From Methanobrevibacter sp. TLL-48-HuF1 (GTDB lineage: Archaea > Methanobacteriota > Methanobacteria > Methanobacteriales > Methanobacteriaceae), in NCBI RefSeq assembly GCF_023617305.1, contig NZ_CP081485.1, positions 1,354,501 through 1,418,500 of the forward strand: a stretch of 64,000 nucleotides of DNA. Direction: 5' to 3'. Every line of letters begins with the position of its first letter. The stretch's first letter is position 1. The position numbers and the translations under genes are program-made. Below are positions 15,620-54,590 of the stretch, piece after piece. A model generated the notes under the pieces. It saw nothing but the letters and a program-made list of their open reading frames with translations, ran no database searches and was not told where the DNA came from.

Positions 15620-16378
15620 ATGTTACTCGAAATTGAAAATTTGGCTGTGGAAGTGGCCGGCAAAAGAGTTTTGAAGGATATTAATCTTTCAATTGATGAG
15701 GGGGAGACTCATGTTCTTTTAGGCCCGAATGGTGCTGGTAAAAGTACATTGTTTTTAACAATTCTTGGTTTTCCACAATATAATGTAGTTAATGGAACAA
15801 TTAAATTCAAAGGTAAAGATATTACTAATTTAACTACAGCTGAACGTGTCCAATTAGGAATTGGAGTAAGTTTCCAATCTCCACCATCTATTCGTGGAGT
15901 GTCAGTTCGTGATTTGCTTAAAATTGAATCTCATCAAGAAATTAATGAACCGTTAAATGCCAGAATGTTGGAATTGGCTCAAAAACTTAAATTTAATGAT
16001 GAATTTTTAGACAGGGATGTTAATTTCGGATTTTCCGGAGGGGAAGTTAAACGTTCTGAAATTTTACAGTTACTTGCTCAAATGCCTGATTTCACTATGT
16101 TTGATGAGCCGGATTCCGGTGTGGATATTGAAAATGTTGAATTGATAGCTAGTGAAATTGGTACTTTACTTGATAAGGATTTAAAACATGATTCTAGAAA
16201 AAGAAGCGGTCTTTTAATTACTCATTTAGGTTATATTTTGAATTTTGTAAGTGCTGATAAAGCTCATGTTTTAATGGATGGTAAAATAGCTTGTTCAGGT
16301 AATCCTGCTGAGATTATTGAGGATATTAGGAAAGAAGGTTTCAATGGATGTGTTGAATGTGCGCAATGTATTAAATGA
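15620..16378 (+). CDS. sufC: Fe-S cluster assembly ATPase SufC
   Basis: A 252-residue ABC-type ATPase with Walker A GPNGAGKS (35-42), signature FSGGEVKRSE (about 142-151) and Walker B followed by DEPDSGVD, the form typical of SufC. It pairs with SufB to build and transfer Fe-S clusters, the minimal system of archaea. Unusual is the C-terminal tail GCVECAQCIK with three closely spaced cysteines (C-x2-C-x2-C), which could bind metal. The bases for this tail overlap the start of sufB. Confidence 0.92.
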   Translation: MLLEIENLAVEVAGKRVLKDINLSIDEGETHVLLGPNGAGKSTLFLTILGFPQYNVVNGTIKFKGKDITNLTTAERVQLGIGVSFQSPPSIRGVSVRDLLKIESHQEINEPLNARMLELAQKLKFNDEFLDRDVNFGFSGGEVKRSEILQLLAQMPDFTMFDEPDSGVDIENVELIASEIGTLLDKDLKHDSRKRSGLLITHLGYILNFVSADKAHVLMDGKIACSGNPAEIIEDIRKEGFNGCVECAQCIK

Positions 16379-23413: not shown

Positions 23414-26044
23414 ATGAACTTTAAATTAAAGATTTTGCTTTTAGGATTGTTATTTGTTTTATGTGTTAATTCAGTTTCTGCAGTTGATTCTTTGAATAAT
23501 ATGACTTTAGATGATAATGTTATCTTGGAGGATTCTGATTATGTTGTTGATGAAACCATTTTAATTGATGGGGATGTTTCAATCAGTTCTGAAAATGGTG
23601 CTGTTATTTCAGCTAATAATGAAAATAGTATTTTTAATGTTTCGGGTAATTCTAAGTTAACTTTATCTAACTTGAATTTAACTGATGCTAAAGGAGTAAA
23701 TGGTGGTGCTATTTACAATGAAGGTACTTTAATATTAAATAATTGTAGTTTTATAAATAATAAAGCAACTTTTGGTGGCGCTATTTACAATAATGGAACG
23801 ATTATTTTAAATAACTGTACTTTTAAAGCCAATGTTGCTTCAGTCAGTGGTGGGGCTGTATATAATCTTCAGGATGATTTAACTATTCAAGATTCCACTT
23901 TCATTGGAAATTATGCAAAAATTAAAAATGGTATTTTACAGGGAGGAGCAATAGCTAATTATGCCAATAATTTAACTGTTGACAACTGTTCTTTTGTAAA
24001 AAATCATCTATTTAATACTAACTGGTATAAAAACGGAAAAATGTATGGTGGAGCTATTTATAACTGTGGAGATAATTTATTAGTTAGAAATTCTAAATTT
24101 ATTAAAAACTATATTTATGGGTACACAGACAATATGAATAAAAATGTGGATTTATCTGATAAATATGGAGGTGCTGTTTACTCAAATGCAACTGTTTCAA
24201 CTTTTATAAATAATGAATTTGATTCAAATGAAATATATGCTATGTTATCTTCTTATGTTACTAAAAAAATAAATTTAAGTAATAAAGGTATAGCTAGTGC
24301 TATTTCAGCATATAATAAAGTATTCATAATTAATAATACATTTTCAAATAACTCTGCTGCTGTTGCTCCTATAGATATTGATGATGGTGAAGGTTGTCTT
24401 ATTTTAAATAATACTTTTATTAATAATAATGCACGTTCCCTTGCACAATCCATGTGGCTTAGTGGAAATAATATGATTATTAGTGGAAATACTTTTTATA
24501 GAGATGGGAATGCTACTGATAAAGGTTATTTTGAAGATCCTAATTATTGGGAAGTTTATGAGATTTTAATTCTTGATGGAGTAAATAATACAATTGCCTT
24601 TAATTATTTCGAAAATTCTAATGGTATTCATTATCTTAATCCTACTGGTGAAGACAAAACTGCGAATTTAACTATTAGTAATAATATATTTAATAATTCC
24701 AGGAAATCTATTTCTGTAGAACATGGAAATAATGTGGATATAACTTCAAATATATTTATAAATTCAAATTATGCAATTGATACTTACACTGGAAGATATG
24801 TTAATATTAAAAATAACTATTTCTATGGTGGAGGTCCTGATGGTAATTCTCATAAGGGGTATGTTGATATAAATTCTCATTTCACTGTTATTTCAGGAAA
24901 TGTCTTTAGAAAAGTAGGTAATAATGATAGTTTAGGTCCTATAATTTCTATTAAAGTAAGGGATAATATTACAATTACTGGTAATGCTTTCATTGAAAAT
25001 ACTGTTGCACATGGTAATGGAATTATTCATTCATTATTCGGTGGATTTTATTATATTGATGGTATAACTGATGTTGATGGTCCTTTAGGTAATGTTGAAG
25101 TTAATAATAATTATTTTGCAAATAATTCTCTTAATGATGGAGCGTTATTTGATTCTGTAGCTTCAAAAATTAACATTGTCCGAAATATTATTGAAAATAA
25201 TGATGGTTTAATAATTTTAGCTAATGACACATATTACCAAATTCAATATATGAATTTCACGGATAATGAAATTAAAGATTTCACTGGAAATATTGGGGAT
25301 TATATTTATCTTTATAATTCCAAAAATTTCAACGGATCTGATAATAAAAAATACACAGGAGAAAGTAGCTCCTTTATAGATAAAATATTTGATTTTATTA
25401 AAGATTTATGGGATGACTTTTTCAAAGGTAAAGATTCTATTAAAGATCCAACTAAAGTTGATGATAATAAGAATATAAGTAATTCTACATCTGAAATTAC
25501 TAATAATACTGATGTTGATAATTCTACAACTAACATTACGAATAATACTGAAATTAATAATACAAATGTAAGTAATTCTACATCTAACAACACAGAAATT
25601 ATTGATAATACTACAAATACAGATAATTCCACATCTGATGTCAATAATAACACAACCATTCCAGATAATAATACTTCTGAAGATAATACTAAAAAAGATG
25701 ATTCTACATCTGAAGATAATAGTAAAAATACGGAATTTGATAATAATGCTACAGACTCAGATAGTGATTCTGATGTTGGTGATAGTTTAAATATGTTGCC
25801 TTCATATAGTCACAGTGATAAAACTAATGATGAAAATCCTAGCGAATCCAAATCTGCAAAATCAAATGTTGGTGCAGGTCAATCTAGTCCACGTTCACCT
25901 GGTGCTTCTTCTTCACCAGAAGCTCATGAAATTGTAAAATCCAATGTTTCTAAAAATATTAATGATAATAATTATTTGATATTTTTTATCGTGGTTATTG
26001 TGGTTATATTTGCATTGTTAGTTGTTGGATATAAGAAAAAATAA
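23414..26044 (+). CDS. Adhesin-like surface protein, beta-helix type, membrane anchored (cassette 1, gene A)
   Basis: An 876-residue protein. The signal peptide ends near VNSVSA (residue 23). Residues about 60-640 are a right-handed parallel beta-helix of the polymorphic-outer-membrane-protein/pectate-lyase style, with repeated GGAIYN and NN-F-NN units. A low-complexity Asn/Ser/Thr/Asp stalk follows (about 680-800, many N-glycosylation sequons). A C-terminal membrane helix (about 853-873) ends in KKK. There is no LPXTG-like sorting signal. The N- and C-terminal parts are close to the protein at 31176; the middle differs. Probably a cell-surface protein binding host, microbial or plant polymers; target unknown. 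Confidence 0.85.
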   Translation: MNFKLKILLLGLLFVLCVNSVSAVDSLNNMTLDDNVILEDSDYVVDETILIDGDVSISSENGAVISANNENSIFNVSGNSKLTLSNLNLTDAKGVNGGAIYNEGTLILNNCSFINNKATFGGAIYNNGTIILNNCTFKANVASVSGGAVYNLQDDLTIQDSTFIGNYAKIKNGILQGGAIANYANNLTVDNCSFVKNHLFNTNWYKNGKMYGGAIYNCGDNLLVRNSKFIKNYIYGYTDNMNKNVDLSDKYGGAVYSNATVSTFINNEFDSNEIYAMLSSYVTKKINLSNKGIASAISAYNKVFIINNTFSNNSAAVAPIDIDDGEGCLILNNTFINNNARSLAQSMWLSGNNMIISGNTFYRDGNATDKGYFEDPNYWEVYEILILDGVNNTIAFNYFENSNGIHYLNPTGEDKTANLTISNNIFNNSRKSISVEHGNNVDITSNIFINSNYAIDTYTGRYVNIKNNYFYGGGPDGNSHKGYVDINSHFTVISGNVFRKVGNNDSLGPIISIKVRDNITITGNAFIENTVAHGNGIIHSLFGGFYYIDGITDVDGPLGNVEVNNNYFANNSLNDGALFDSVASKINIVRNIIENNDGLIILANDTYYQIQYMNFTDNEIKDFTGNIGDYIYLYNSKNFNGSDNKKYTGESSSFIDKIFDFIKDLWDDFFKGKDSIKDPTKVDDNKNISNSTSEITNNTDVDNSTTNITNNTEINNTNVSNSTSNNTEIIDNTTNTDNSTSDVNNNTTIPDNNTSEDNTKKDDSTSEDNSKNTEFDNNATDSDSDSDVGDSLNMLPSYSHSDKTNDENPSESKSAKSNVGAGQSSPRSPGASSSPEAHEIVKSNVSKNINDNNYLIFFIVVIVVIFALLVVGYKKK

Positions 26045-26276: not shown

Positions 26277-29200
26277 ATGAATTTTAAATATTTAATATTC
26301 TTATGTTTAATGTTCATTGTTTCAATTGGTGCTGTAAGTGCTGCAGATGATGTAAATAATACTGTAGATAATACAGTTGATGCAGATACAGCAATAAATA
26401 GTGTATCAGTTGATTCAGTTATTATGGATAGTCCTATTTATGCAAATAATGCTAAGGAATATACAATAACAAATGATAATTATGAAAACTATTTTGATAA
26501 TGAAACTGGTGATATATTAGATACTGCTCCTTTTAATAATGGGGATGTTTTAAAAATTGATAATGTATCAGATAAATGTTTCGTAATAAGTAAAAATTTA
26601 ACTATTTTGCCTGCTGGGGCTAATACTACTTTTACAAATGTAGGATTTAATTTTGTTCCTGGAAGTGAAGGTTCTATTGTAAATGGAGTAACTATTAATA
26701 ATACTGTTGGTAAATGGAGTAATAATGATGCTGTATTTTTAATACCTATTTTAATTCAGCATACTAAAAATATCACAGTTATTAATTCCAATCTTTATTC
26801 ATCAGCAAGTACTGTACCAGCTCCAAATAATGTTGTTTATATGGTAAATGCATCTTATTGTAATATTAGAAATAATACTATTTCTCAATCTTCAGGTAAA
26901 GTGCCTGTGAATATTGTTTCATCAAGCTATAATAATATAACTGATAATAAGATGTATTCTAAATCTGCAAATGTTATTTTTGTTGGATTAGGTTTTTCAT
27001 CTCTTGCTGTAGCTGGTATTAGTGAAGGTAACTTATTTAAAAATAATATTCTTGATGGAAATGGTATAAGTAGTGCAATGTGTTATGCTATTAAATTACA
27101 AGGTAATTCAAATGTTGGTAAAACTATTGGTCAAAATACATTTATAGGAAATACTATATCTAATGCATATGATGGTATTTATATTCAAGATGATGTAAAT
27201 GGTACAACTATAATAAACAATACTTTTATTAATGTAAGAACAGGTATAGAAATGGTTCATCAAAGAGCAGTTGTTGAAAAAGCATATATTTACGGTAATA
27301 ATATAACTGCAACTACTGATGCTATTGTAATTACAAGAGGATCTGCAACAATTGAAGATAATGTAATTAATGCTGGAAATAGGGGAATATTTTTAAAACC
27401 ATTTTCTTCTGATTTATTAATTTTAAATAATCATGTTGTTGCTAGAGGACAATATGCTGTATGGTCTGATAGTAGGAGTAATAATGTAACTGTTATGGGT
27501 AATTATCTTGTTTCTAGTTCATTTAAAGGAGATAATGCTGTTAAAGCTAAAGATAAAAGTAAAGTATCTGGCAATGGACCTTTGGATATTAATGTTGCTA
27601 TAGATGCAGACATAACTAAAAATGCTACAGCTACTATTAAACTTTCACCTATGGTTAATGGTACTATAACTATTAGCTTCAATGGAAAAATAGAAACTAT
27701 TGATTTTAATGGTTCAGGATCTCTTGTTTATGATTTAGGATTATTAGAATTTGGAGAACATAATATTACTGTAACTTATAATGGTAATAATAATTTTAAT
27801 GGCACTACTGTTACTAAAACTTTCTTTGTTGATAAAATCAATACTGGAATTAAACTTGTTGTAGGTAATATTAATGTTGATGAAACTGCAGTAATTAATG
27901 TAACACTTACTCCTGGAATAAATGGAACAGTAAAAGTTGTTGTAAATGGTCAAACTTATAATGTAGCTATTAAAAATGGTATAGGAACTTTAGAAGTAAA
28001 ATGGTTAAAAGCAGGTAAATATGATGTGTCTGCTTACTTCACAGGTCAAAATTATTATAAAGACTCATTTGCTTCAGCATCATTTAGTGTGAATAAATTA
28101 AACCCAGTCCTTAGTATTAATGCTAGTTCTATTAACTGTGGCGAAGATGTTATTATTAATGTGTCTTCATCTGTATATTCTATAGAAGTTGAATTAGTTA
28201 TTCGTTTAGACAATTCAAATTATTATAGATATGATTCTTTCTATATATATGGTCAAGAATCAAGAAAAATATCTGATTTGCCTGCAGGAAGTTATTTGGT
28301 TCAATTTATTGCACCGGAAGACACTAAAAATAATAGAGCACAAACTACAGTTCGTTTCACAGTATCCAAATTAGCTTCTTCTGTTGCAGTTGATGTTAAA
28401 GATATTGTTGTTGGTGAGGATGCTGTTATTGGTGTGTCTGTTCCAGGTATTGTTTCTGGTGTAGTTAATGTTACTGTTAATGATGAATCTTATGATGTAG
28501 CTATTGTTGATGGTAAAGGAACTTTAACTATTTCTAATTTAGTTGCTGGTGACTATAATATTAGTGCAAGCTACTTAGGAGATGACAAATATTTATCAAG
28601 CAGTAATTCTACTAAATTTACCATATCTAAATTAGCTTCTTCTGTTGCAGTTGATGTTGATGATATTGTTGTTGGTGAGGATGCTGTTATTGGTGTGTCT
28701 GTTCCAGGTATTGTTTCTGGTGTAGTTAATGTTACTGTTAATGGTAGGTCTTATAATGTTGCTATTGTTGATGGTAAAGGTGTTTTAATTATTTCTAATT
28801 TGGCTGCTGGTGATTATGCAGTTGATGTGAATTATGCGGGAGATAATAAATATTTACCAAGTAGTAATTCTACTAAATTCAGTATATCTAAATTACCTTC
28901 ATCTGTTCTTGTTAATGTTAAAGATATTGTTGTTGGTGAAGATGCAGTTGTTAATGTGGTTTTACCTGATGATGCTACTGGTAGTGTTACTATAACTGTT
29001 AATGGTAAAGATTATGTAGTTGATGTTAAATATGGTGTTGCTAATATTGCTATTTCTGATTTAGCTAAAGGAAACTACAATGTTTCTGTAAAATACTCTG
29101 GTGATGGCAAATATTTACCTAGTGAAAATGCTACTCACTTTGATGTTGTAAAAGCATCTGAATATAATGTGACTATTATTATTGATGTTGGTGATATTGT

Positions 29201-30991
29201 TGTTGGTGAGGATGCTGTTATTGGTGTGTCTGTTCCGGATATTGTTTCTGGTGTAGTTAATGTTACTGTTAATGGTAGGTCTTATAATGTTGCTATTGTT
29301 GATGGTAAAGGTGTTTTAATTATTTCTAATTTGCTGCTGGAAATTATAATGTTAATGTAAATTATGCTGGTGATAATAAATATTTACCAAGTAGTAATTC
29401 TGCTAATTTCACAGTATCAAAAGTTTCATCTAGTGTGATTGTTGATGTTGGTGATATTGTTGTTGGTGAGGATGCTGTTATTGGTGTGTCTGTTCCGGAT
29501 ATTGTTTCTGGTGTAGTTAATGTTACTGTTAATGGTAGGTCTTATAATGTTGCTATTGTTGATGGTAAAGGTGTTTTAATTATTTCTAATTTGGCTGCTG
29601 GTGATTATGATGTTAATGTGAATTATGCGGGAGATAATAAATATGTAGCAAGCAGTAATTCTACTAAATTTACCATATCTAAATTACCTTCTTCTGTTCT
29701 TGTTAATGTTGATGATATTGTTGTTGGTGAAGATGCAGTTGTTAATGTGGTTTTACCTGATGATGCTAATGGTAATGTTACTATAACGGTTAATGGTAAA
29801 AATTATGTGGCTGTTGTTAAATATGGTGTTGCTAGTGTTACTATTTCTGATTTAGCTAAAGGAAACTACAATGTTTCTGTAAAATACTCTGGTGATAACA
29901 AATATTTACCTGGTGAAAATACTACTCAGTTCAGTGTTGCAAAAGTATCTGATTATAATGTGACTGTTGATATTGTGGATATTATTGAGGGTGAGAATGC
30001 TACTGTGACTGTGGTTGTTCCTGATGATGGAACTGGTGAAGTTATAATTACTATTGATGGTAAAGAGTATAAAGGTAGTGTTGATAATGGTGTTGCTAAA
30101 GTTGTTATCCCTGATTTAAAAGAAGGAACATATAAAGTTGTCACATTCTACACTGGAGACAATAAATATGATTCTATGATTGTTAATGGAACTATAACAG
30201 TTAATAAAAACACTAAAACCACCTTAACAATGGACGATGTTGTAAAATACTTCAAAGGTGCTCAAAATCTCACAGCTAAACTAGTTGACGCATTTGGAAA
30301 CCCAATAGCTAACGCAACTATTTACTTCACAGTAAACGGCAAAGTTTATGCTAAAACAACTGATAAAAACGGTACAGCTTCCATGGGTATCGGATTAGTT
30401 CCTAACGAATACAAAGTAAATGCTGTATTTAACGGAACCAAAGATTATGATAAAGCAACAGCTAATGCAACAGTAACAGTTAAAAACACTGTATTAGGAA
30501 ATGACACTACATTATACTTCTGCAACGGAACAAAATATGTAGCTAAATTCTTAGACAGCAACGGAAAAGCATTAGCAAACACGACTGTAAAATTCAACAT
30601 TAACGGTGTGTTCTACACCCGTGTAACTGATGAAAACGGTACAGCTAGTTTAACTATCAAATTAGATCCAAAATCATATGTTATAACAGCTTACAACCCA
30701 GCAACCGGTGAAGAAAGAGCTAACAACATAACTGTCATGCCAACTTTAATAACTAAAGATCTCTCTATGAAGTTCCAAGATGGTTCTAAATTTAATGTAA
30801 CTATTCTTGATGGTCAAGGTAAACCTTTAGCTAATCAAAATGTAACATTCAATGTAAATGGTGTATTCTACAACAAAGTTTCAGGTGCTGATGGTGTTGC
30901 AAGTTTAAATATAAATTTAAATGCAGGTAAATACATTATTACTTCAATGTGGAATGGTTATCAAGTTGGAAACAATATTACAATTGCTTAA
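26277..30991 (+). pseudogene. Adhesin-like protein with Ig-like repeats, broken by a frameshift (cassette 1, gene B)
   Basis: One gene split in two frames: 26277-29360 gives 1027 residues ending in an aberrant tail, and the original reading resumes from about 29334 to 30991. Repeat units elsewhere read AATTTGGCTGCTGG; here (29328-29340) one G is missing, and the unit is 260 instead of 261 bases. Order: signal peptide (to VSA, residue 22), NosD/beta-helix domain (about 60-430), ten Ig-like units of about 87 residues, then three C-terminal repeats of about 85 residues (DGQGKPLANQNVTFNVNGVFY type). No C-terminal membrane helix. Paralogue at 33782 is intact with two Ig-like units. It may be a true mutation, a phase-variable state or a sequencing error. 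Confidence 0.8.
28376..30205 (+). repeat. Tandem 261-base Ig-like repeats
   Basis: The phrase GATATTGTTGTTGGTGA recurs at 28401, 28662, 28923, 29193, 29453 and 29714, with a diverged GATATTATTGAGGGTGA at 29978, giving spacings of 261, 261, 270, 260, 261 and 264 bases. The copies starting at 29193 and 29453 are identical over about 140 bases, a sign of recent duplication or gene conversion. Each encodes an Ig-like beta domain (VGEDAV ... NVTVNGRSYNVAI ... GDNKYLPSSNST). Confidence 0.85.
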
Positions 30992-31175: not shown

Positions 31176-33596
31176 ATGGATTGTAAATTAAAATTTTTAT
31201 TTTTAGGATTGTTGTTTGTTTTGTGTATTAATTCAGTTTCTGCAGTTGATTCTTTGAATAATATGACTTTGGACAGTAATGTTGTCTTAGATGATTCTAA
31301 TTATATTGTTGATAATACTATTTTAATTGATGATGATGTTTCAATTAGTTCTGAAAATGGTGCTACTATTTCAGCCAATAATAAAAATACTATTTTTAAT
31401 ATTTCTAGTAATGGTAAGTTAACTTTATCTAACTTGAATTTAACAAATGCTAAAGGAATCAATGGTGGTGCTATTTACAATGAAGGTACTTTAATATTAA
31501 ATAATTGTACTTTTGTAAATAATAAAGCAACTTTTGGTGGTGCTATTTACAATAATGGGACCATGATTTTAAATAATTGTACATTTGAATCTAACACGGT
31601 TTCAGTTAGTGGTGGAGCCATATATAATCTTCAAGATAATTTAATTATTCAAAATTCCTATTTTGCTAATAATTTGGGAACTATCAGAAACGGTGAATTA
31701 AAAGGTGGAGCAGTTTTTAATAGTGGATTTAATTTAAAAGTTATTAATTCTAAGTTTGTTCATAATGGATTGTATAATAAAGATTGGTATGAAAATGGAA
31801 TTCAATATGGCGGAGCTATTTATGATTGTGGTGGAAATTTAACTGTTGGAAATTCTGTTTTTGGTAAAAATTTTATTTATGGTTATACTAAAAATCAGGG
31901 TACGCAATTAAATTGGAAATATGCATCTGCAATTTACACAATATCTCCAGAATCTACACTTATAAATAACTTATTTGATTCTAATGAGATATACTCAATG
32001 GCATCTTCTTATTTGAAACTTAAAATATCAAATGAGGGTCTTTCTTCTGTTTATACCTTAAAAGTAACAGCTATTAATAATACTTTTTTAAATAATAGTG
32101 CTTATAATCCTGTATTATATATTGTAGGTAATAATAGTTATATTGCAAATAATTATTTCTTAAATAACAGTGCATCAAAACATAGTTTAGGTATATCTAT
32201 TTATGTTCGTGGTCATAGTACAGTATTTTTCAATAATACTTTTATTAATAATACTGGTGGAAATAAAATGTTGGATGGTGCTAATATTTTCATTTCTAAA
32301 GGAGGGCATGAAGTTATTGAATATAATTATTTTGAAAATGGTAATGGAATTGCTTATGAAGGATTTTTAGAGGCATTCCCAGAAAACTATGTTACTGAGG
32401 AGTCTAATGTAACTATTAGGAATAATATATTTAACAATTCTTTCATAGGAATATATTTACATAATGCTAGTATGGTGAATATAGACAGTAATATATTTAT
32501 TAATAATAGTATGGGTATTCATACATATATTGGAAATGATCTTAATATTACAAATAATTATTTTAAAGGTGGAAATTCAGTTAATTTTGGAACTGGAATT
32601 GATTTAAATACAAATAGGACTTTAATTAAAGGAAACATATTTGATGGTTTGAAGTCTAATATGGGTGATATTAAAGGATCATGTGGCGGAATAATTTTCA
32701 TCAAATCTCATTATGATGATGAGGTTGTAATTGAAGGAAATTTCTTTATAAATAATGAAATTTTTAATAGATCAGGATTGATATCTGCATCAATGCCTAC
32801 AGTTAAAGTTTCAAATAACTATTTTGGTAATAATACTCTTAATGGAGGCAGTGTCTTTGATTTAGATAATTCTAAGTTTGAAATTATTGGAAATATTATT
32901 GAAAATACTATGGGATTATTATTTAAAACAGACAGTGATTTCTATTACTTTAATGATGTTATATTTGGTGAAAATCAAATTACAGATTACACTGGAAATA
33001 TCCAAGATTATACTCAATTTAAAAATAATGCTTCTACTTTAAAAGATTATGCAAATGAAAAATATGGAGATGATAGTAATCCTATTTTTGATATGATTCA
33101 AGAGATTATTAAAAATATTTTCGATTCTTTTAATAAAAAATATCAACCTCCTGTGGAAGATAAACCATCTAATAGTACTGATGTTCCTGATAATTCTACT
33201 GTTGTAGATAATAGTACTTCTAATGGTACTGATATCTCAGATAATTCTACTTCTGAAAACAATAATAAAAATCACAATGAGGATAATATTGAAAGTAATT
33301 CTACTGATTCAAGTATTAATTCTGATGTTGATGATATTTTAGACAAATTAACTTCATCTAAAGAAACTCCTGGGTGTGATAGTGGAAATCCTATTGAATC
33401 TAAATCTACAAAATCAAATGTTGGCGCTGGTCAATCTATTCCAATTTCAAATAGTCATTCTTCTTCACCAAAAGCTCATGAAATTGAAAAAAGCAATGTT
33501 TCTAAAAATATTGAAAATAATAATTATTTAATTCTTATTATTGTAGTTATTATAGCTATATTTGCATTACTTGCTATTGGATATAAGAAAAAATAA
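31176..33596 (+). CDS. Adhesin-like surface protein, beta-helix type, membrane anchored (cassette 2, gene A)
   Basis: An 806-residue paralogue of the protein at 23414. It has the same signal peptide (to VSA), the same first 150 residues with GGAIYN repeats, a beta-helix body to about residue 640, a shorter Asn/Ser/Thr/Asp stalk (about 690-740), and the same C-terminal end (SNVGAGQS, then KAHEIEKSNVSKNIENNN and a membrane helix ending YKKK). The central part has diverged more than the ends, as expected if the exposed binding face changes while export and anchoring stay fixed. Ribosome site GGAGG at 31160. Confidence 0.85.
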   Translation: MDCKLKFLFLGLLFVLCINSVSAVDSLNNMTLDSNVVLDDSNYIVDNTILIDDDVSISSENGATISANNKNTIFNISSNGKLTLSNLNLTNAKGINGGAIYNEGTLILNNCTFVNNKATFGGAIYNNGTMILNNCTFESNTVSVSGGAIYNLQDNLIIQNSYFANNLGTIRNGELKGGAVFNSGFNLKVINSKFVHNGLYNKDWYENGIQYGGAIYDCGGNLTVGNSVFGKNFIYGYTKNQGTQLNWKYASAIYTISPESTLINNLFDSNEIYSMASSYLKLKISNEGLSSVYTLKVTAINNTFLNNSAYNPVLYIVGNNSYIANNYFLNNSASKHSLGISIYVRGHSTVFFNNTFINNTGGNKMLDGANIFISKGGHEVIEYNYFENGNGIAYEGFLEAFPENYVTEESNVTIRNNIFNNSFIGIYLHNASMVNIDSNIFINNSMGIHTYIGNDLNITNNYFKGGNSVNFGTGIDLNTNRTLIKGNIFDGLKSNMGDIKGSCGGIIFIKSHYDDEVVIEGNFFINNEIFNRSGLISASMPTVKVSNNYFGNNTLNGGSVFDLDNSKFEIIGNIIENTMGLLFKTDSDFYYFNDVIFGENQITDYTGNIQDYTQFKNNASTLKDYANEKYGDDSNPIFDMIQEIIKNIFDSFNKKYQPPVEDKPSNSTDVPDNSTVVDNSTSNGTDISDNSTSENNNKNHNEDNIESNSTDSSINSDVDDILDKLTSSKETPGCDSGNPIESKSTKSNVGAGQSIPISNSHSSSPKAHEIEKSNVSKNIENNNYLILIIVVIIAIFALLAIGYKKK

Positions 33597-46466: not shown

Positions 46467-46484
46467 AACGGAGGTTTGTTAATT

Positions 46485-47435
46485 ATGTGTACTGCTGCAA
46501 ATTATTTAACAAAATGCCATTATTTTGGCCGTAATTTTGACTATGAAATTTCATATAATGAAAGAGTAACTATAACTCCAAGAAACTATCCTTTAATATT
46601 TCGGGATACTGAAGACATTGAAAATCATTATGGGATTATTGGCATAGCTGCAGGTATTGATGAATATCCTTTGTATTATGATGCATGTAATGAGAAAGGA
46701 TTAGCTATGGGTGGATTAAACTTTCCAGATTATTGTGACTACAAGCCATTAAATGAGTCTAAAGTTAACATAGCTTCTTTTGAAATTATTCCATATATAT
46801 TATCCCAATCAAAAACAATAAATGATGCCAAAAGATTATTGGTTGATTTAAATATTTCAAATGAGAAATTTTCAACTCAATTGCCTCCATCTCCACTTCA
46901 TTGGATTATTTCAGATAGAAATGCTTCAATTGTTGTAGAGGTTGTAAAGGAAGGATTGAATGTTTATGATAATCCTGTAGGGGTTTTAACAAACAATCCT
47001 CCTTTTGATAAACAGCTGTTTAATTTAAATAATTATATGGCATTATCCAATAAGGCACCTGAAAATACATTTGGAGGAAATTTGGATTTGGCTATTTATA
47101 GTAGGGGAATGGGTTCAATTGGTCTTCCGGGTGATGTTTCTTCACAGTCCCGTTTTGTAAAAGCTTCTTTTGTTAAGGAGAATTCTGTTTCAGGAGACTC
47201 TGAAAAAGAAAGTGTGTCTCAGTTTTTCCATATCCTTGCATCTGTAGAACAGCAGAAAGGATGCACATTGGTGGAAGAACCTGATAAATTTGAATATACT
47301 ATTTATTCAGATTGTTATAATACAGATAAAGGAATATTGTATTATAAAACATATGATGGTCCTCAGACATCTGTTAATATGTATGATGAGAATTTAGAAA
47401 CTGATCAATTGATTAATTTTGAGTTAATTGATTAA
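46485..47435 (+). CDS. bsh: Bile salt hydrolase (choloylglycine hydrolase)
   Basis: A 316-residue Ntn-hydrolase. The ATG at 46485 gives MCTAANY, placing the nucleophile Cys2 directly after the start, as the family requires; an ATG at 46476 would bury it. Arg16 and Asp19 in FGRNFDY correspond to the BSH substrate-binding residues, and VLTNNPPF near residue 170 supplies the conserved Asn. It releases glycine or taurine from conjugated bile salts in the gut. Gut methanogens are known to carry this enzyme, probably gained from gut bacteria. It could also be the related penicillin V acylase, though the residues favour BSH. Confidence 0.9.
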   Translation: MCTAANYLTKCHYFGRNFDYEISYNERVTITPRNYPLIFRDTEDIENHYGIIGIAAGIDEYPLYYDACNEKGLAMGGLNFPDYCDYKPLNESKVNIASFEIIPYILSQSKTINDAKRLLVDLNISNEKFSTQLPPSPLHWIISDRNASIVVEVVKEGLNVYDNPVGVLTNNPPFDKQLFNLNNYMALSNKAPENTFGGNLDLAIYSRGMGSIGLPGDVSSQSRFVKASFVKENSVSGDSEKESVSQFFHILASVEQQKGCTLVEEPDKFEYTIYSDCYNTDKGILYYKTYDGPQTSVNMYDENLETDQLINFELID

Positions 47436-47479: not shown

Positions 47480-47848
47480 TTAATGGATGTCCTCTACATA
47501 CATTAAAGGATAATTCAACTCCTCAATAAACTCTATTCTTATTGTAGCCTGTACATCCTTTACTTTTGTATATATTTTAACATCAAGCATATCTCCAGTT
47601 AAAGAGGTGTAGTCAAAATCGCTCATTGATTCTTCCAGTTTGTCAAATCTAATTTTAACATCAACATCTTCAATAGCTGGCTGTAATTTTAATGATTCTT
47701 CCATACTTGTTTCTAAACTTTTTTTAGAACTTTTATTTACAGGAGTTCCAACAAATTGGTGAAATAATGCTCCCATACTTATTGCACCTTCAAATATTGC
47801 TCTTTCTCTTGAGGTTATATTTGAAAAGTATTTTTCATCAACATCCAT
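47480..47848 (-). CDS. mptD: Archaeal dihydroneopterin aldolase MptD
   Basis: A 122-residue protein starting MDVDEKYFSNITSRERAIFE with HQFVGTPV (near 31) and LQPAIEDVDVKIRFDKLEE, the pattern of the archaeal MptD family. MptD cleaves 7,8-dihydroneopterin to 6-hydroxymethyldihydropterin in methanopterin synthesis. It is the last gene of a minus-strand run that starts upstream with the sortase, 3 bases away. Confidence 0.82.
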   Translation of the reverse strand: MDVDEKYFSNITSRERAIFEGAISMGALFHQFVGTPVNKSSKKSLETSMEESLKLQPAIEDVDVKIRFDKLEESMSDFDYTSLTGDMLDVKIYTKVKDVQATIRIEFIEELNYPLMYVEDIH

Positions 47849-47851
47849 CTT

Positions 47852-48574
47852 TTACATTCCTCCGTTTAGCCATAATATTTTTTCATAAATTATATTGGAA
47901 TCTATTGGGAAAACATAGAAATAGAATAATATTGCTGATATAATTAACACTGCAGCTAATATGTAAATTCTATTGTCTTTAGGATAGAAATAACTAAATA
48001 TTAATCCTATAACTAAAAATGCAGTAGCTATTATTAATGCATATGATTCATGAGGATTGTTTTGAATTATTTCATCATTTATCGGACCGACTTTGCTTAA
48101 CTCACCTTCAATAATTAATCTGTGGGCAGTAGATCCAATTGGGTCACAGGTAATCAGATATATGTGAGTTCCATTACTTTGAGCATTGATGCGTGCAGTT
48201 GGTTCAACTATAGTCTTGTTTATGACGGTATAGTTTACTTCCCCTATTCTCGGCCATTCTAAGGTAATTATGTCTCCGTTATTTAATTCATTAAGTCTTA
48301 AGAATGGTGATCCCTGAAGAGTTCTGTGCCCAGATAGTATAACATCTCCATATGTTGGCGTAAATGATTTTGTATCGTGCATAACACCTTGTGAAAGAGA
48401 TACATTATTTATTTTCTCTTCAATTCCAATAGTTGGTATATTTATAACAGGTGAATCTATATTTTTCTCAACAGCTATTTTTGATGAGAAATAGTTAACT
48501 TCTCCCGCAGCATATAATCCTAATATGATTATACAAATTATAACAACTAAAGTTGTAATTTTTGGTTTATTCAT
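47852..48574 (-). CDS. Sortase
   Basis: A 240-residue membrane-bound sortase. One N-terminal helix (about 7-24), an outside catalytic domain, then two C-terminal helices (about 178-197 and 200-220). The catalytic residues are His83 (SGHRTL), Cys143 (LITCDPIG) and Arg152 (HRLIIEG). The pattern is closest to archaeal sortases of the class C/E-like type. Sortases cut sorting signals to attach proteins to cell-wall or pilus partners. The adhesins in this window show no LPXTG signal, so its substrates are unknown. Confidence 0.88.
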   Translation of the reverse strand: MNKPKITTLVVIICIIILGLYAAGEVNYFSSKIAVEKNIDSPVINIPTIGIEEKINNVSLSQGVMHDTKSFTPTYGDVILSGHRTLQGSPFLRLNELNNGDIITLEWPRIGEVNYTVINKTIVEPTARINAQSNGTHIYLITCDPIGSTAHRLIIEGELSKVGPINDEIIQNNPHESYALIIATAFLVIGLIFSYFYPKDNRIYILAAVLIISAILFYFYVFPIDSNIIYEKILWLNGGM

Positions 48575-48613
48575 GTTATCAACTTTTTATTTTTTTAGTT
48601 TAAAATATTTTAC

Positions 48614-49786
48614 CTATTTTTTATAAGTTGAATTTATTTCATTAACCATCCATGCAGGAGCACTTGTTGTTGGAATTGTTAATATGATTTGATCCATATT
48701 ATCTAATAAGAAATTAACTTTGTCTTGTGGTGTTTCAACAAGCAGCATATATTGGGCATCTAAATCTCCAAGATTAATTTGTCTTTCATAATTAGATAAT
48801 TTTATACCATAATTCTGCAATAGCTCTGCAGTCTGTTTTTCATTGTATCCGTTTATTATTGAACCTTTTAAAAGTTCCAAAACATTTGATTTAAAAGTTT
48901 GTGTGTTTTCATTTGGATTTGTGTTATTTCCTTGGACAATTGTATCTGCTTTTGAGTATTCGCTGTCAATCTCTCCATTTTCTTCACATCTCATTATTGA
49001 AATCACAGTACATCCTTTTATATCTGGACTGGTTTGGTTATTTGGTGTTCCATTGTCTGTATAGTTTGAACTAGTATAAATATCAACAATACTTCCTACA
49101 TTTACAAGCCCTGCTCCTGCCTGAAGTCTTGAAACTAAAATAGGTACTGATACCGTATTCGGTTTTTTAAATTTAATTTTAGAGAGAACTTCTGCATTAT
49201 TCTCATCAACAATAGTTAAAGCTTCACTGGCAGGTATTATGGCATTTTTGGTATTGTTGTCAGTATAGGTCACCATAGTTCTATTATATGGGTCTAAATT
49301 TGCATTTATGGACTTTTTATGAAATGCTTTCCAGTCTTTAGTAGCAGGTAACAATATATTTATGGATTCTACCTCATTTTTGCTTTTTGCATTGTTAATT
49401 TCATTTTCCAATATCATAGCTTCACTTGAACTTGTTAGAGCACCAGTATACAGATTATGAAGTTCATTAAGCTTTGTTGTTTTTGCTAAATTCAGTTCTT
49501 CTTGGGAGGGTTCATAAATTAAGAAATAATAAGCAGATATTACCAAAGTTAAGATAATTAAAGTTGTAATTATCATACCTATTTTTTTCTTTTCTTCATT
49601 TTCAATTATATTTTCCGGTTTTGGACCAATATATTTTCCTAATTTCTGATTAAATGATTTTAATATTTTTAAATCATTGTCTTCTGTTTTTTTGGGTTTT
49701 AGTCGTGGAATCTGACGGTTTTTAAGGTTATCTATATCCTCAAATCCTTGGGGATATAATGGATCTCTTGGTTTTTGGTCAATCAT
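48614..49786 (-). CDS. Single-pass membrane protein with CpaB/SAF-like domain (DUF515-like)
   Basis: A 390-residue protein with a basic cytoplasmic N-terminus (about 1-65), one membrane helix (about 70-90) and a large outside domain. The stretch VSVPILVSRLQAGAGLVNVG followed by SIVDIY resembles the SAF/RcpC domain of CpaB, the pilus-assembly protein. I think it belongs to the methanogen DUF515 family but cannot confirm that. It lies 39 bases upstream of the sortase in the same direction. Role unknown; envelope or appendage assembly is an inference. Confidence 0.6.
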   Translation of the reverse strand: MIDQKPRDPLYPQGFEDIDNLKNRQIPRLKPKKTEDNDLKILKSFNQKLGKYIGPKPENIIENEEKKKIGMIITTLIILTLVISAYYFLIYEPSQEELNLAKTTKLNELHNLYTGALTSSSEAMILENEINNAKSKNEVESINILLPATKDWKAFHKKSINANLDPYNRTMVTYTDNNTKNAIIPASEALTIVDENNAEVLSKIKFKKPNTVSVPILVSRLQAGAGLVNVGSIVDIYTSSNYTDNGTPNNQTSPDIKGCTVISIMRCEENGEIDSEYSKADTIVQGNNTNPNENTQTFKSNVLELLKGSIINGYNEKQTAELLQNYGIKLSNYERQINLGDLDAQYMLLVETPQDKVNFLLDNMDQIILTIPTTSAPAWMVNEINSTYKK

Positions 49787-49829
49787 TAATTTATACCTCT
49801 ACTTTTATTTAAAAAAGTAGATGGGTAAT

Positions 49830-50528
49830 TTAATTAATTTTAATTAAATTAATTAACAGGTAATATAAGGAAAATATCAATAGTATTAATGCAGGTATGT
49901 TTATGCCAAAGAGTGTTAGACTTATTGGAAGTATAATTAACACAATTAACACTACAGAAACTCCAATAATAATTAAATTATCAAATTTGGGATATGTAAC
50001 ATTACTAATCATCAATAAAGACACTATAATCATTAATATTAAAGCAAGATAAATATTGAATAATCCGCTTAAATAGAATGTAGCTAATATAATGGCTATT
50101 CCGGGGATTGGAAATCCTATAAAGTCATGTGTTTGAATGTGGTCTGCTATTGCATTGTATCTGGTTAATCTTAAGATACCACAAGCTACAATTAATAAGC
50201 TAATGATTGTTGGAATTATTGAAAGATTATGGGGTATTGTGCTGCTAATTGTATAGAGAAATACTGCAGGTGCTGCACCAAATGATATGGCGTCTGAAAG
50301 GGAGTCTATATTTTGTCCAAATTTTAATGCATCATTTCTATTAATTTTCCTAGCTACCCAGCCATCTACAGAGTCAAACATGATGGCTATTATCATTAAA
50401 ATAGCTGATGACTCAAAATTATGATTTATCGCAAAAAGGATTGAGATAAATCCACATATCATGTTCATTAGTGATATTCCATCGGATATTGCAAAAAAAC
50501 TTTGAATCTTTGTACTTTCTAATTTCAT
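49830..50528 (-). CDS. pssA: Archaetidylserine synthase (CDP-alcohol transferase)
   Basis: A 232-residue membrane enzyme with the CDP-alcohol phosphatidyltransferase motif DGWVARKINRNDALKFG then NIDSLSD (D-x2-DG-x2-AR-x8-G-x3-D-x3-D). It attaches serine to CDP-archaeol. About seven hydrophobic helices follow. The ATG at 50528 (MKLESTKIQ) is chosen because GGAG lies six bases upstream; an ATG at 50540 is alternative. It lies 43 bases upstream of the CpaB-like gene. Confidence 0.88.
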   Translation of the reverse strand: MKLESTKIQSFFAISDGISLMNMICGFISILFAINHNFESSAILMIIAIMFDSVDGWVARKINRNDALKFGQNIDSLSDAISFGAAPAVFLYTISSTIPHNLSIIPTIISLLIVACGILRLTRYNAIADHIQTHDFIGFPIPGIAIILATFYLSGLFNIYLALILMIIVSLLMISNVTYPKFDNLIIIGVSVVLIVLIILPISLTLFGINIPALILLIFSLYYLLINLIKIN

Positions 50529-50871
50529 GTAAAACTCCATTGATACTTTTTAACTCATTTATTATTAATTTTTTCTTGTTTTACTCATTATTTTTTCTTG
50601 TATCTTTATTTAATGATTGAATAATGGTATTTTTAGTGAAATAAACTAATTTATATGAGTTTTAAAAATTTATTTATTTCTTGAATTAATTTTTGATTTT
50701 AATTATTGTTATGCTTTATGCTAATTGTTGTGGTTAAAGTTATATTTTTAAAGATAAAATATATATAATAATAATGGGTAATTATTAATTGTTAAACTTT
50801 AATAAATTCAATTACTTTGTTGTAATTTATTTAAAGTTGAAGTAAAATATTAATATAATGCGAGTAGTTAA
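50529..50871. other. 343-base divergent intergenic region
   Basis: AT-rich, with no credible gene. It holds promoters for pssA (leftward) and the gene at 50872 (rightward), the latter probably AATATATATAAT at 50758-50769, which implies a leader of about 80 nucleotides. No RNA gene or marked repeat is seen. Confidence 0.5.
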
Positions 50872-51507
50872 ATGATAGAAGATATACAAGCACTTAGACA
50901 AGCTGCACGGTTAACACCGGATAATGAAAACCAAGATGAAAAAGTTTGGTGTATAGCTGCAGGAAATGTTAATTTGATAGATGACATAGCCTATAAAGCG
51001 ATTGCTTCTAAGCATTCTGTAAAAATTCTATTTAGAGAACATGTTATATTAACAGATAAAAGATTAAATAAAAAATTTGATTTTATCATGTTGTATGGTA
51101 ATTCAGGCAAAATTAATCAATTTAAAAGACTTTGTAATCAGAAGGGTGGGGCTTTTATACAAGTAACTCGCCATTATTTAACTGAAGAACCTAACTTGAT
51201 GGTTTTAGTCGCTCCTGATGATATGATTAAAAATCTTGTTTATGTTCTTGAGAAATCAAAGGTTTCATTTGCGATTTTACAGGAATCTCAAACTACAGGT
51301 TTCATTGATGTTGATATAAATTCCAATGTTAAACTACCAAATTTTATTAAATCTGCTTTAAAGCCATTATATAATATAAGCGATGTTGTATTATCAACAG
51401 TTTTGATTTCAGTTGAAAAAGATGAAGATGTTGAAAAAGTCCAGAGTATAGCTACATCTAATAGGATATTTGTCATTGATTTTAAAGATATTGTAACGGA
51501 GGATTAG
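50872..51507 (+). CDS. Unrecognised 211-residue protein upstream of MreB-like gene
   Basis: I do not recognise this family. It is soluble, with alternating strand and helix patterns, no signal peptide or membrane segment, and few cysteines (VWCIAAG, RLCNQKGG). Residues about 22-65 and 85-130 look Rossmann-like (VWCIAAGNVNLIDDIAYKA; NLMVLVAPDDMIKNLVYVLE). Its stop and the start of the MreB-like gene are two bases apart, and the ribosome site of the latter lies in its last codons. The coupling suggests a joint function in cell shape or regulation. Confidence 0.6.
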   Translation: MIEDIQALRQAARLTPDNENQDEKVWCIAAGNVNLIDDIAYKAIASKHSVKILFREHVILTDKRLNKKFDFIMLYGNSGKINQFKRLCNQKGGAFIQVTRHYLTEEPNLMVLVAPDDMIKNLVYVLEKSKVSFAILQESQTTGFIDVDINSNVKLPNFIKSALKPLYNISDVVLSTVLISVEKDEDVEKVQSIATSNRIFVIDFKDIVTED

Positions 51508-51509
51508 TC

Positions 51510-52583
51510 ATGAATATTTTTGGAAATGAAGAAGAGGAACCACAAGCTAATGATACCAGAATCATTAGTAACAGTTTGGGAATAGATTTAGGAACTTTAA
51601 ACACGGTAATTGCAAAACCATCTGGAGACAAATTTGATTTATATCAAATTCCATCAGTTGTCGCTGTTAAAAAGGATGATCCGTCTGAAGTTTTAGCAGT
51701 TGGGGAAGAAGCTAAAAAAATGCTTGGTAGGACTCCTGAAGATATTCTTGCTGTAAGGCCTTTGAAAAAAGGAGTTATTGAAAACGTAGCTCAAGCACAA
51801 GCTTTACTTATTAAAGCTATGCAAATTGGTATAGAAGAAGGAGAAAGTGTTGGAAGAATTGTTATAGGTATTCCAGGAGATTCTTCTGAAGTGGAAAAAA
51901 ATGCAGCTGAAGAAATTGGTAGAAAAGCTGGAGCAGAAAACATTCTTGTAATTAGTGAAGGATTGGCAGCAGCTATTGGTGCTGGTTTACCTATTGCAGA
52001 ACCAAATGGAACTATGGTTATTGATATTGGTGCAGGTTCAACTGATATTGTTATTATTTCTCTCGGTGGTATTAACGATATTGAAACAGTTAGGTGTGGT
52101 GGAGATGATGTTGATAACAGAATCGTTGAATTAGTTGCAGAAAAATACGATGTAGCTATTGGTATTCATGATGCAGAAGCTGCAAAAATAGAAGTTGGTA
52201 TGATTCATTGCAGTGAACAACTTGAAAATTTAAGTGTTGAAGTTATTGGTAAATCATTAGAAACCAACAGGCCTAAAAAAGTTGTTATTGATTCAATGTT
52301 AGTTGCTGATGCTGTAGAACCATTTATGCAAGAAATTGTAGATGGTTTAAATGTGATTTTAGAAAGATTATCTCCTGAATTAATGATGGGAGTTTATAAT
52401 AATGCAGTAGCAGTTGGAGGAAGTTCAAGACTTCGTGGATTAAAAGAAAGAGTTTTCGATGAAATATCTATTCCTATTGAAGTTTCTGATGATCCTATGA
52501 CTGTTGTAGCAAAAGGTACAGCTATTGTTGCTGCAGAACCTCTTGCATTAGAACCTGAAGTTCGTCTTAGAGCTATGAAATAA
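51510..52583 (+). CDS. MreB-like actin homologue
   Basis: A 357-residue member of the actin/Hsp70 ATPase superfamily, closest in length and motifs to MreB. Motifs: GIDLGTLNTVI (about 23-33), MVIDIGAGSTDIVI (about 170-183) and AVGGSSRLRGLKER near 316. The first 20 residues are acidic and not part of the usual fold. MreB-like proteins occur in pseudomurein-walled methanogens, where a role in cell shape is suspected. No MreC or MreD is seen next to it. Its partner at 50872 is probably co-translated. Confidence 0.8.
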   Translation: MNIFGNEEEEPQANDTRIISNSLGIDLGTLNTVIAKPSGDKFDLYQIPSVVAVKKDDPSEVLAVGEEAKKMLGRTPEDILAVRPLKKGVIENVAQAQALLIKAMQIGIEEGESVGRIVIGIPGDSSEVEKNAAEEIGRKAGAENILVISEGLAAAIGAGLPIAEPNGTMVIDIGAGSTDIVIISLGGINDIETVRCGGDDVDNRIVELVAEKYDVAIGIHDAEAAKIEVGMIHCSEQLENLSVEVIGKSLETNRPKKVVIDSMLVADAVEPFMQEIVDGLNVILERLSPELMMGVYNNAVAVGGSSRLRGLKERVFDEISIPIEVSDDPMTVVAKGTAIVAAEPLALEPEVRLRAMK

Positions 52584-53252: not shown

Positions 53253-53325
53253 CTATTTTTTTAAAAACTATTAAGTATATGGTTAAATAAATTATTTTTA
53301 TAAAAATATTATATTGAGGATAAAA

Positions 53326-54165
53326 ATGATAGTTGAATATCTGACTCAATTTTTCGAAAATATCATGGAGATACTTACTCAGGGGGGAATTATTACTTAT
53401 ATAATTCTTTTTATTGGTATTTATGGTCTTCTTGTTTCATTAAGAAAAATTGTGTATCTTAAGAAAATTAGTAAGGTAGATACAACTGAAATTTTAGGTA
53501 TTGTTTCTGCTTCTATGGAAAGAGGAGGAGCAGTTGAAGCATTAAAACAAATTAATTCTTTTAAAAATCCTATTTCTAAAATTATTTCTGAAACTTTAAA
53601 AATCGGTTATAAAAACAAAATTGAAGTTGAAGAAAGTATGGAACAAATTTTCATTGTTGAAGTAAGTAAAATGACTAAAGGATTAAATTCAATTAAAACA
53701 ATTATTGAATTGGCTCCATTTTTAGGTTTAATCGGTACTGTAATTGGTATCTGGATGACCTTTAAAGCATTAGGAGTTAATCCTAATTCTGCAGCTATGG
53801 CAGAAGGTATTTATATAGCTTTAACAACAACTATTGTAGGTTTGCTTGTAGCTATTATTATGTTACCGATTCATACTTATATTCAAGGTTTAGTTGAAAA
53901 TGAAATGGATAAAATTGAATTGGCTACTAAAATGACTAATTGGGGTTATGCAGTAGTTAAAATAAGAGTTGAAGCTAATGTTGAATGTGCATTAGAAGCT
54001 CTTCAAGAAGCCGAAGGTGTTGTTAATACTAGACTAATTTCTGATCCTTATGCAAACATTAAGGTTTCATTTAAACCTAGTATGTTAGATAAAAGTATTT
54101 CAAATATTATATTGGAAAAGTGCAATGTTAATGCTGAAATAATTGAAAGTAAATTGAGACAATAA
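53326..54165 (+). CDS. MotA/TolQ/ExbB-family proton channel protein
   Basis: A 279-residue membrane protein with three helices (about 16-38, 120-145, 160-185) and the family pattern APFLGLIGTVIGIWMTFKAL. ExbB-type proteins use the proton gradient to drive a partner. GAGGA at 53316-53320 supports the ATG at 53326. The C-terminal 70 residues are soluble with an unusual ACT/HMA-like strand pattern (VKIRVEANVECALEALQEAEGV). ExbD follows after 8 bases. Which process the pair drives in a cell without an outer membrane is unknown. Confidence 0.8.
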   Translation: MIVEYLTQFFENIMEILTQGGIITYIILFIGIYGLLVSLRKIVYLKKISKVDTTEILGIVSASMERGGAVEALKQINSFKNPISKIISETLKIGYKNKIEVEESMEQIFIVEVSKMTKGLNSIKTIIELAPFLGLIGTVIGIWMTFKALGVNPNSAAMAEGIYIALTTTIVGLLVAIIMLPIHTYIQGLVENEMDKIELATKMTNWGYAVVKIRVEANVECALEALQEAEGVVNTRLISDPYANIKVSFKPSMLDKSISNIILEKCNVNAEIIESKLRQ

Positions 54166-54173
54166 GTGATTTT

Positions 54174-54590
54174 ATGAGAATTGATGTTAAATCATATAAA
54201 GAGAAGGTTCTTAACAGGAAACCGTCTATTAACTTAGTTCCACTTATAGATATTTTATTTACAATTATGATTTTCTTGGTTGTGACAAGTAATTTCTCAG
54301 CATCAGATATGTCTGCTGATGATGCATCTTCTACTGACTCAGGAACAGGCAAACCAAATGTAACTGATGTTTCTGGAGATGCTGAATATTATGTTGTGCC
54401 TGTAGCTAATTTGCATAAAGTTGTTGTTGATGGTAAAGACATGTCTGATTTAATATCGCAAAATGCTATTGGTGTTAAAGCTAATGTTATCGATGAGGGA
54501 CAAATACAAATAAAACCTGGAGAGATTATTATAACTACTCCGGCAGGTGTGTCTCCTGAAGATGCTGTTAGAAGTCCAAATACTACTTAA
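54174..54590 (+). CDS. ExbD/TolR-family protein
   Basis: A 138-residue protein with a short cytoplasmic N-terminus, one helix (about 20-42) containing LVPLIDILFTIMIFLVV, where the aspartate is the expected proton carrier, and an outside domain (about 45-138). It pairs with the ExbB-like protein at 53326. A Ser/Asp-rich stretch (SADDASSTDSGTG) follows the helix. purO starts 11 bases downstream. Confidence 0.8.
   Translation: MRIDVKSYKEKVLNRKPSINLVPLIDILFTIMIFLVVTSNFSASDMSADDASSTDSGTGKPNVTDVSGDAEYYVVPVANLHKVVVDGKDMSDLISQNAIGVKANVIDEGQIQIKPGEIIITTPAGVSPEDAVRSPNTT

Follow-up and report, generated by a model that had tools for sequence, protein, structure and literature searches.

A sortase locus of Methanobrevibacter and a candidate variant sorting signal on secreted proteins

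What does a sortase act on when no adhesin encoded around it carries an LPxTG-type signal, and does it work as one unit with the genes it lies among? We addressed these questions for a locus in Methanobrevibacter sp. TLL-48-HuF1, whose genome is one contig of 1,951,395 base pairs (bp; NZ_CP081485.1), starting from a stretch of 64,000 nucleotides (positions 1,354,501 to 1,418,500; hereafter the window). A reading made from this sequence alone (the original prediction) had taken the order pssA, CpaB-like gene, sortase gene and mptD as an envelope or pilus-like assembly unit whose sortase must recognize a different motif or substrates encoded elsewhere. We found that six secreted proteins of this genome end in a candidate sorting signal, in most cases a variant of LPxTG, and that matches to this signal tended to accompany the sortase across the family Methanobacteriaceae. 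We consider it fairly probable that the sortase fixes adhesins to the cell surface, with pseudomurein as the probable attachment site, and that the CpaB-like protein next to it is an RcpC-like component of a distinct type IV pilus system. The substrate side, namely the variant signal and its candidate clients, is what is new here; the gene cluster is already in print.

The sortase and its locus

The locus comprises the following features (window coordinates; scores in bits against the model's cut-off).

47480 to 47848, minus strand: mptD, dihydroneopterin aldolase family, a metabolic neighbour (PF04038, MptD-type aldolase, 144.4 against 25)
47852 to 48574, minus strand: sortase with an N-terminal helix and three C-terminal helices (PF04203, 60 against 26.6)
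48119 to 48121, minus strand: codon of sortase Arg152, putatively catalytic (invariant in 22 of 22)
48146 to 48148, minus strand: codon of sortase Cys143, the putative nucleophile (invariant in 22 of 22)
48326 to 48328, minus strand: codon of sortase His83, putatively catalytic (invariant in 22 of 22)
48614 to 49786, minus strand: CpaB-like DUF515 protein with one N-terminal membrane helix (PF04415, 41.8 against 29)
48647 to 49159, minus strand: RcpC-like domain of the CpaB-like protein, residues 210-380 (VIA-align to 9gzr)
49830 to 50540, minus strand: pssA, archaetidylserine synthase (NF038087, 299.9 against 240)

Open reading frames (ORFs) and profile matches bore out the predicted order on one strand. 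The gaps between pssA, the CpaB-like gene, the sortase gene and mptD are 43, 39 and 3 bp, so the four genes are probably one transcript. Position 50528, given earlier as the start of pssA, is its second ATG, and the ORF starts at 50540. The pssA product was 43% identical over 183 residues to that of genome G148 from a neighbouring family, and MTH_1027 of M. thermautotrophicus deltaH was assayed in vitro (PMC7157517). Judged from its profile match, mptD is a pterin enzyme and a metabolic neighbour.

The sortase is the sole PF04203 match in the whole genome of 1.95 megabases (Mb), even at E-values (E) up to 10. It passed the general sortase model TIGR01076 (44.8 bits against 39.35) and stayed below all NCBIfam class cut-offs (class C, 48.2 against 160; class D, 41.3 against 165; class E, 38.7 against 160), and we therefore left it unclassed. 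Its residues His83, Cys143 and Arg152, which we take to be the catalytic residues of a sortase, were invariant in 22 of 22 aligned sequences. The AlphaFold2 model (predicted local distance difference test, pLDDT, 87) consists of a helix (residues 6-36), the sortase domain and further helices at 167-171, 178-196, 202-221 and 226-239, and its best matches among solved structures were class C, A and E sortases (E 3.3e-11). The fold and the triad suggest that this is a true sortase, and the protein has membrane helices. In the family, 106 of 138 genomes had a sortase match (PF04203, E 0.001). Methanogen sortases have been counted before (PMC2812497, PMC3087415), and sortase abundance shifts with temperature in M. 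thermautotrophicus (PMC6528648). Four loci (L056, L058, L060, L062) held a second, shorter sortase of about 200 residues, 29-30% identical and in a different gene context.

Candidate clients and their signal

A dedicated substrate was apparent in relatives. Seven family genomes (G001, G004, G132, G133, G134, G135 and G137; G004 judged from coordinates) encode a secreted protein of about 300-360 residues between cpaB and the sortase gene. The tail reads, for example, VPSKTTGVPYGLFVVGTLVAVAGVAYARFMR; an alignment of five copies had VP..TG in common, and this operon substrate has no LPxTG though its gene abuts the sortase gene. In G134 (L059:7743-8661) it is split over two overlapping ORFs, by a frameshift or an assembly error. 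A profile of the operon substrate (A1) had no match in the Methanobrevibacter sp. TLL-48-HuF1 genome at E 0.01. A second profile (A2), made from ten tails, found more tails in the genomes with an operon substrate and then in Methanobrevibacter-like ones, and a third (A3, 25 rows) was searched over the 138 family genomes. Of 35 family matches to A3 picked for reading, 33 proved to be C-terminal signals, unlike the other two.

Most of the signals have the form [M/L][K/Q/P/A]xTG-x-P followed by a hydrophobic helix and a basic tail at the C-terminus. Among 80 distinct C-termini, M occupied position -3 in 56, K or Q position -2 in 62 and P position TG+2 in 76, with LP preceding xTG in 2; the script filter demanded TG and many of these rows had also built A2 and A3, so the counts serve as a description of the motif, not as a test of it. 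Three of the 80 were spurious (minus strands of L132, L055 and L057) and L149 was read one TG too early; all were kept in the counts. The variant signal keeps the register of LPxTG, M taking the place of L and K or Q that of P. The triad, the fold, the C-terminal arrangement of signal, helix and basic tail, and this register are thus shared with the Gram-positive sortase and LPxTG system, whereas the archaeal signal has mostly M for L, K or Q for P and a near-constant P two residues after G, and the acceptor here cannot be bacterial lipid II.

Applied to the genome under study, A3 gave seven matches, six of which were secreted proteins that end in the signal (genome positions below).

1306537: protein of 197 residues, SIPLESTGIP, itself a row of the A3 profile
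148510: protein of 251 residues, DLAKTGIP
111952: protein of 354 residues, DASTGLP
525433: protein of 1,414 residues, VLPKTGLP, a literal LPxTG
272066: protein of 3,951 residues, SLPNTGNP, a literal LPxTG
1815218: protein of 5,592 residues, MAKTGNP

The genome-wide search for shared C-terminal motifs before hydrophobic tails, which the original prediction had proposed, thus yielded candidate clients, and both of its alternatives were supported: they are encoded outside the window, and four of the six carry the variant rather than the literal LPxTG. For the five clients outside the profile, A3 E-values ranged from 2.4e-5 to 0.0027. All six had a signal-peptide-like start (by eye and hydropathy) and no internal stop. 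DUF11 repeats occurred in three, Big_3_5 repeats in one, and two had no Pfam match (the C-terminal half of the 5,592-residue client was scanned). None of the curated anchor models exceeded its cut-off for the nine tails tested, for which the last 200 residues of long proteins were used; the best was TIGR01167 with 13.7 bits against 15.9. The seventh A3 match (1253743, E 0.058) was not a signal on reading.

Previously, msm0173, msm0411 and mru2147 were listed as LPxTG proteins and mru1832 as a sortase, with two LPxTG proteins counted in M. smithii PS and none in M. thermautotrophicus (PMC2812497). Going by position only, msm0173 and msm0411 probably correspond to the two literal LPxTG clients. 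Compared with that listed set, four further candidates appear in this genome, and G148 carries variant signals. In the latter, a DUF11-repeat protein of 1,474 residues (from ATG), the sole ORF of more than 900 codons in 40 kilobases (kb) at 964-1004 kb, ends in VPMQPTGAPVAALMAGLLLLAAGSAIARRR, which includes VPMQPTGAP. MTH_1074, a DUF11 protein related to the aggregation protein MTCT_1020, has 1,474 residues (PMC6759345), and the matching length suggests that the G148 protein is MTH_1074. The comparable 40 kb of G143 contained no such ORF of more than 900 codons. The titles and abstract openings of the open-licence papers listed by our literature searches did not mention the variant signal or a link between sortase and lipid in Methanobacteriales.

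Within the window itself, the original prediction was right that no adhesin has an LPXTG-type signal: none was found among ORFs of at least 80 residues, and a single TGxP lies within 60 residues of an ORF end (in the ORF at 16317), where the tail after it is hydrophilic rather than a membrane helix. The DNA pattern P[TS]xxTG had 40 sites in the genome, compared with 26 for the reversed pattern, and no C-terminal signal appeared in the 30 of 40 loci read; it failed because the signals of this genome do not have that spelling. Two beta-helix adhesins (23414-26044 and 31176-33596) share a C-terminal helix ending in YKKK without TG, and from this sequence they look membrane-anchored, not sorted. 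Between them lie two adjoining Big_3_5 repeat ORFs (26277-30991) that have a repeat in common where they meet; a frameshift may have broken a single adhesin gene into these two.

Signals and sortase tended to occur together. An A3 match (E 0.05) was found in 91 of the 106 genomes with a sortase and in 13 of the 32 without (Fisher test, 1.1e-6), and in genomes of high quality (at least 90% complete, at most 5% contaminated) the counts were 60 of 62 and 5 of 16, respectively (3.8e-8). These counts were tallied by hand, with 14 unlisted no-match genomes assigned by elimination. Methanosphaera, in which a sortase match was absent, had A3 matches in 2 of 20 genomes, where about one is expected by chance at E 0.05.

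Gene order and the CpaB-like protein

We read 43 loci, comprising 40 stretches picked for spread around sortase matches and three from a search with the CpaB-like protein, namely two relatives and a Lachnospiraceae match judged spurious. An orthologous sortase was present in 31 of them, all in Methanobacteriaceae. The order pssA-cpaB-(substrate)-sortase-mptD was complete in 24 of the 31, cpaB lay beside the sortase gene or was separated from it only by the substrate ORF in 26, and the sortase gene adjoined mptD in 30. The incomplete loci had no recognizable pssA (L035, L043), ran into a contig end (L044) or lacked cpaB (L054, L070, L072, L074). In two neighbouring families (G138; G140, G143, G148), all four loci read ORF-pssA-cpaB-substrate-sortase-mptD, and the first ORF was a PF02666 decarboxylase in the three tested. 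Conservation of gene order, which the original prediction had made a test of itself, was therefore found, and by this comparison the order is old.

The cluster corresponds to the published "cluster C", noted as specific to pseudomurein archaea and tied to pilus or surface proteins (PMC11915815). Both contain the RcpC/CpaB-like OG0001177, the "Sortase E" OG0001178, the coiled-coil OG0001176 and the MreB-like OG0000094, with our ORFs assigned to these groups by description and order. Section 6 of that paper names no substrates, sorting signal, decarboxylase or loss in Methanosphaera. Divergent from pssA, at window positions 50872-52583, are a gene for a protein of 211 residues (50872-51507), which had no Pfam or NCBIfam match, and an MreB-like gene.

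Conservation did not extend to a single working unit. A sortase match was absent from all 20 genomes of genus g12 (Methanosphaera), all of which kept the CpaB-like gene; M. stadtmanae had been listed with no sortases (PMC2812497). In 6 of 6 Methanosphaera loci read, pssA-cpaB-mptD remained without a sortase, which indicates that the CpaB-like protein and the sortase are separable. The mreB gene and its 211-residue partner were also missing beside all six (searched at that place only). G007 (genus g6) has pssA-cpaB-mptD without a sortase and retains mreB. In G127 and G128 (g13; L219, L222), pssA-cpaB is followed by genes other than a sortase gene, and the sortases sit on other contigs; cpaB was read on four g13 contigs, and these two were informative, as L220 and L221 end 0.3-0.5 kb past it. 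The single-unit part of the original prediction thus found no support, given these separations and mptD being a pterin enzyme; read from gene content and order, the locus is a neighbourhood of envelope genes whose functions, at least two, can be separated.

The proposed similarity to CpaB was borne out, with reservations. Of 18 relatives, 15 were matched by the RcpC profile with E no higher than 0.1 (the best being 2e-6), and the solved RcpC structure 9gzr ranked first by fold, but the protein of this locus missed the PF16976 cut-off. The DUF515 profile matched 18 of 18 relatives. With VIA-align, 9gzr came first for the AlphaFold2 model of moderate quality (pLDDT 68), with a Z score of 8.7, a root-mean-square deviation of 4.3 and 22% identity over 91 residues, and the next row for the same region had a Z score of 4.1. 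When the CpaB alignment was used as a profile to search the solved structures, no credible match resulted. The genome has one T2SSE motor gene, adjoining a T2SSF platform gene at 718-720 kb, and three class III prepilins over cut-off; the CpaB-like gene occurs in 127 and T2SSE in 126 of the 138 family genomes. In G146 (genome 1,243,342 bp), the CpaB-like gene (L255:9525-11300) lies beside a pair of class III prepilin genes, which may tie DUF515 directly to a pilus, and the 20-kb stretch around it had no sortase, pssA or mptD by BLASTP. Residues 210-380 may share the fold of RcpC/CpaB of Tad pili, whose motor, platform and prepilin genes are also present in the genome, whereas the CpaB-like protein has an extra long helix and DUF515 parts and forms no operon with motor genes.

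Several points weigh against an RcpC identity. The PF16976 score was 20.5 bits against 28.8. Foldseek placed 9gzr first for residues 210-380 with an E-value no better than 0.12, and best VIA-align Z scores of 7-8 are common by the tool's own warning, with 8.7 little above. The gene, at 1.40 Mb, lies outside any tad operon and apart from T2SSE and T2SSF. Nevertheless, a pilus role for the CpaB-like protein is plausible.

Two further neighbours were observed. A choloylglycine (bile salt) hydrolase family gene (46476-47435; PF02275, 328.7 bits) lies between mptD and mfnA, and among the 43 loci read only G041 had one at that place; the ORFs around the locus were 90-100% identical to those of this relative (L036). 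An ExbB/ExbD-like pair (53314-54590), odd for cells without an outer membrane, stands beside rnhB in most relatives read.

Wall, lipid or polymer

Wall anchoring would proceed as follows. The sortase would cut the client signals between T and G, hold the client on Cys143 as a thioester and pass it to a cell-wall amine, most likely in the pseudomurein peptide, so that the adhesins with DUF11 and Big_3_5 repeats would become covalently wall-bound. The triad and fold of the sortase, the signal-bearing gene directly between cpaB and the sortase gene in seven family genomes and in all four loci of the neighbouring families, the six clients of this genome and the co-occurrence of signals with the sortase all speak for this reading. 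Pseudomurein peptides offer free amines. The CpaB-like protein would be a separate device, an outward-facing, RcpC-like component of a type IV/Tad-like pilus machinery native to this genome, for which motor, platform and class III prepilins are encoded away from the locus; pssA would make archaetidylserine, and mptD would be metabolic.

Some observations do not favour wall anchoring. Methanosphaera has pseudomurein, yet no sortase was found there. A3 matches occurred in 11 of the 12 other sortase-less genomes (22 in G014, 20 in G015), nine of which are less than 90% complete (G007, G021 and G062 are not), and 15 sortase-bearing genomes had none. The co-occurrence statistics ignore kinship, and Methanosphaera is one clade. 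Additionally, A2 and A3 were grown iteratively from their own matches, and the two A3 matches that failed on reading (L280, L282) were N-terminal signal peptides.

Alternatively, the substrates might be transferred by the sortase to the amine group of a lipid. The operon partners would supply this aminophospholipid, which would be archaetidylserine, or archaetidylethanolamine where a decarboxylase exists; a transfer of this kind has been put forward for archaeosortase ArtA with PssA and PssD. For the sortase of this locus we regard it as unlikely. It accords with the presence of pssA within the operon in 24 of 31 loci and with the order decarboxylase-pssA-cpaB-substrate-sortase-mptD in the neighbouring families. 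PF02666 was found in 9 of the 138 family genomes, which are all seven with the operon substrate plus G136 and G026 (the G026 match is possibly, at a guess, contamination). Processing by archaeosortase ArtA in Haloferax requires PssA and PssD, and artA, pssA and pssD are neighbours in Methanosarcina (PMC7157517). Our locus resembles that system in archaeal C-terminal sorting beside pssA and, in relatives, a decarboxylase, whereas ArtA is called non-homologous to sortases in that paper and the enzyme here appears to be a true sortase. However, loci that have lost the sortase still pair pssA with cpaB (the six Methanosphaera loci and G007), a PF02666 match was found neither in this genome nor in most sortase-bearing ones, and the pssA product fell below the "protein sorting system" synthase model NF038086 (91 bits against 200). 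We rank wall anchoring ahead of lipid anchoring, and find it improbable that the ancestral operon carried a decarboxylase, an archaetidylserine synthase, a substrate and a sortase, with adhesins attached to lipid and not to the wall. If true, archaea would have evolved the anchoring of proteins to lipid a second time, independently of ArtA-PssA-PssD and in parallel with it.

Still less likely is pilus polymerization, in which the sortase would link substrates to one another as class C pilin sortases do. The helices past the sortase domain, the class C model as the top-scoring subfamily model, class C sortases heading the fold list and the dedicated substrate gene adjoining the sortase gene in relatives would suit it, as would the weak match between a protein tail from G148 and a fimbrial domain that forms isopeptide bonds (18.6 bits against 30). 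On the other hand, the class C cut-off of 160 was not reached, this genome has no substrate gene beside the sortase gene, and client sizes range from 197 to 5592 residues. Least likely of all, and very doubtful in our view, is that the C-terminal helices are plain membrane anchors, TG-x-P a by-product of ancestry and the sortase a servant of few LPxTG proteins only: LPxTG proteins alone were counted previously (2 in M. smithii PS; PMC2812497), a related Methanothermobacter DUF11 protein was read as membrane-anchored (PMC6759345) and the two beta-helix adhesins of the window have helices without TG, but the signals occur on proteins that are not related to each other (with DUF11, with Big_3_5 or without a known domain) and track the presence of the sortase, and the non-LPxTG operon substrate abuts the sortase gene.

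Whereas the earlier table lists at most two LPxTG clients per methanogen genome (PMC2812497), the variant signal raises the number of candidates to six here, and up to 37 candidate A3 matches occurred in one relative (G010). The linkage of pssA and decarboxylase poses the question of wall or lipid as the attachment site, and archaeal sortase anchoring becomes testable with defined peptides. Adhesins bearing these signals may attach methanogens of the gut and rumen to their partners.

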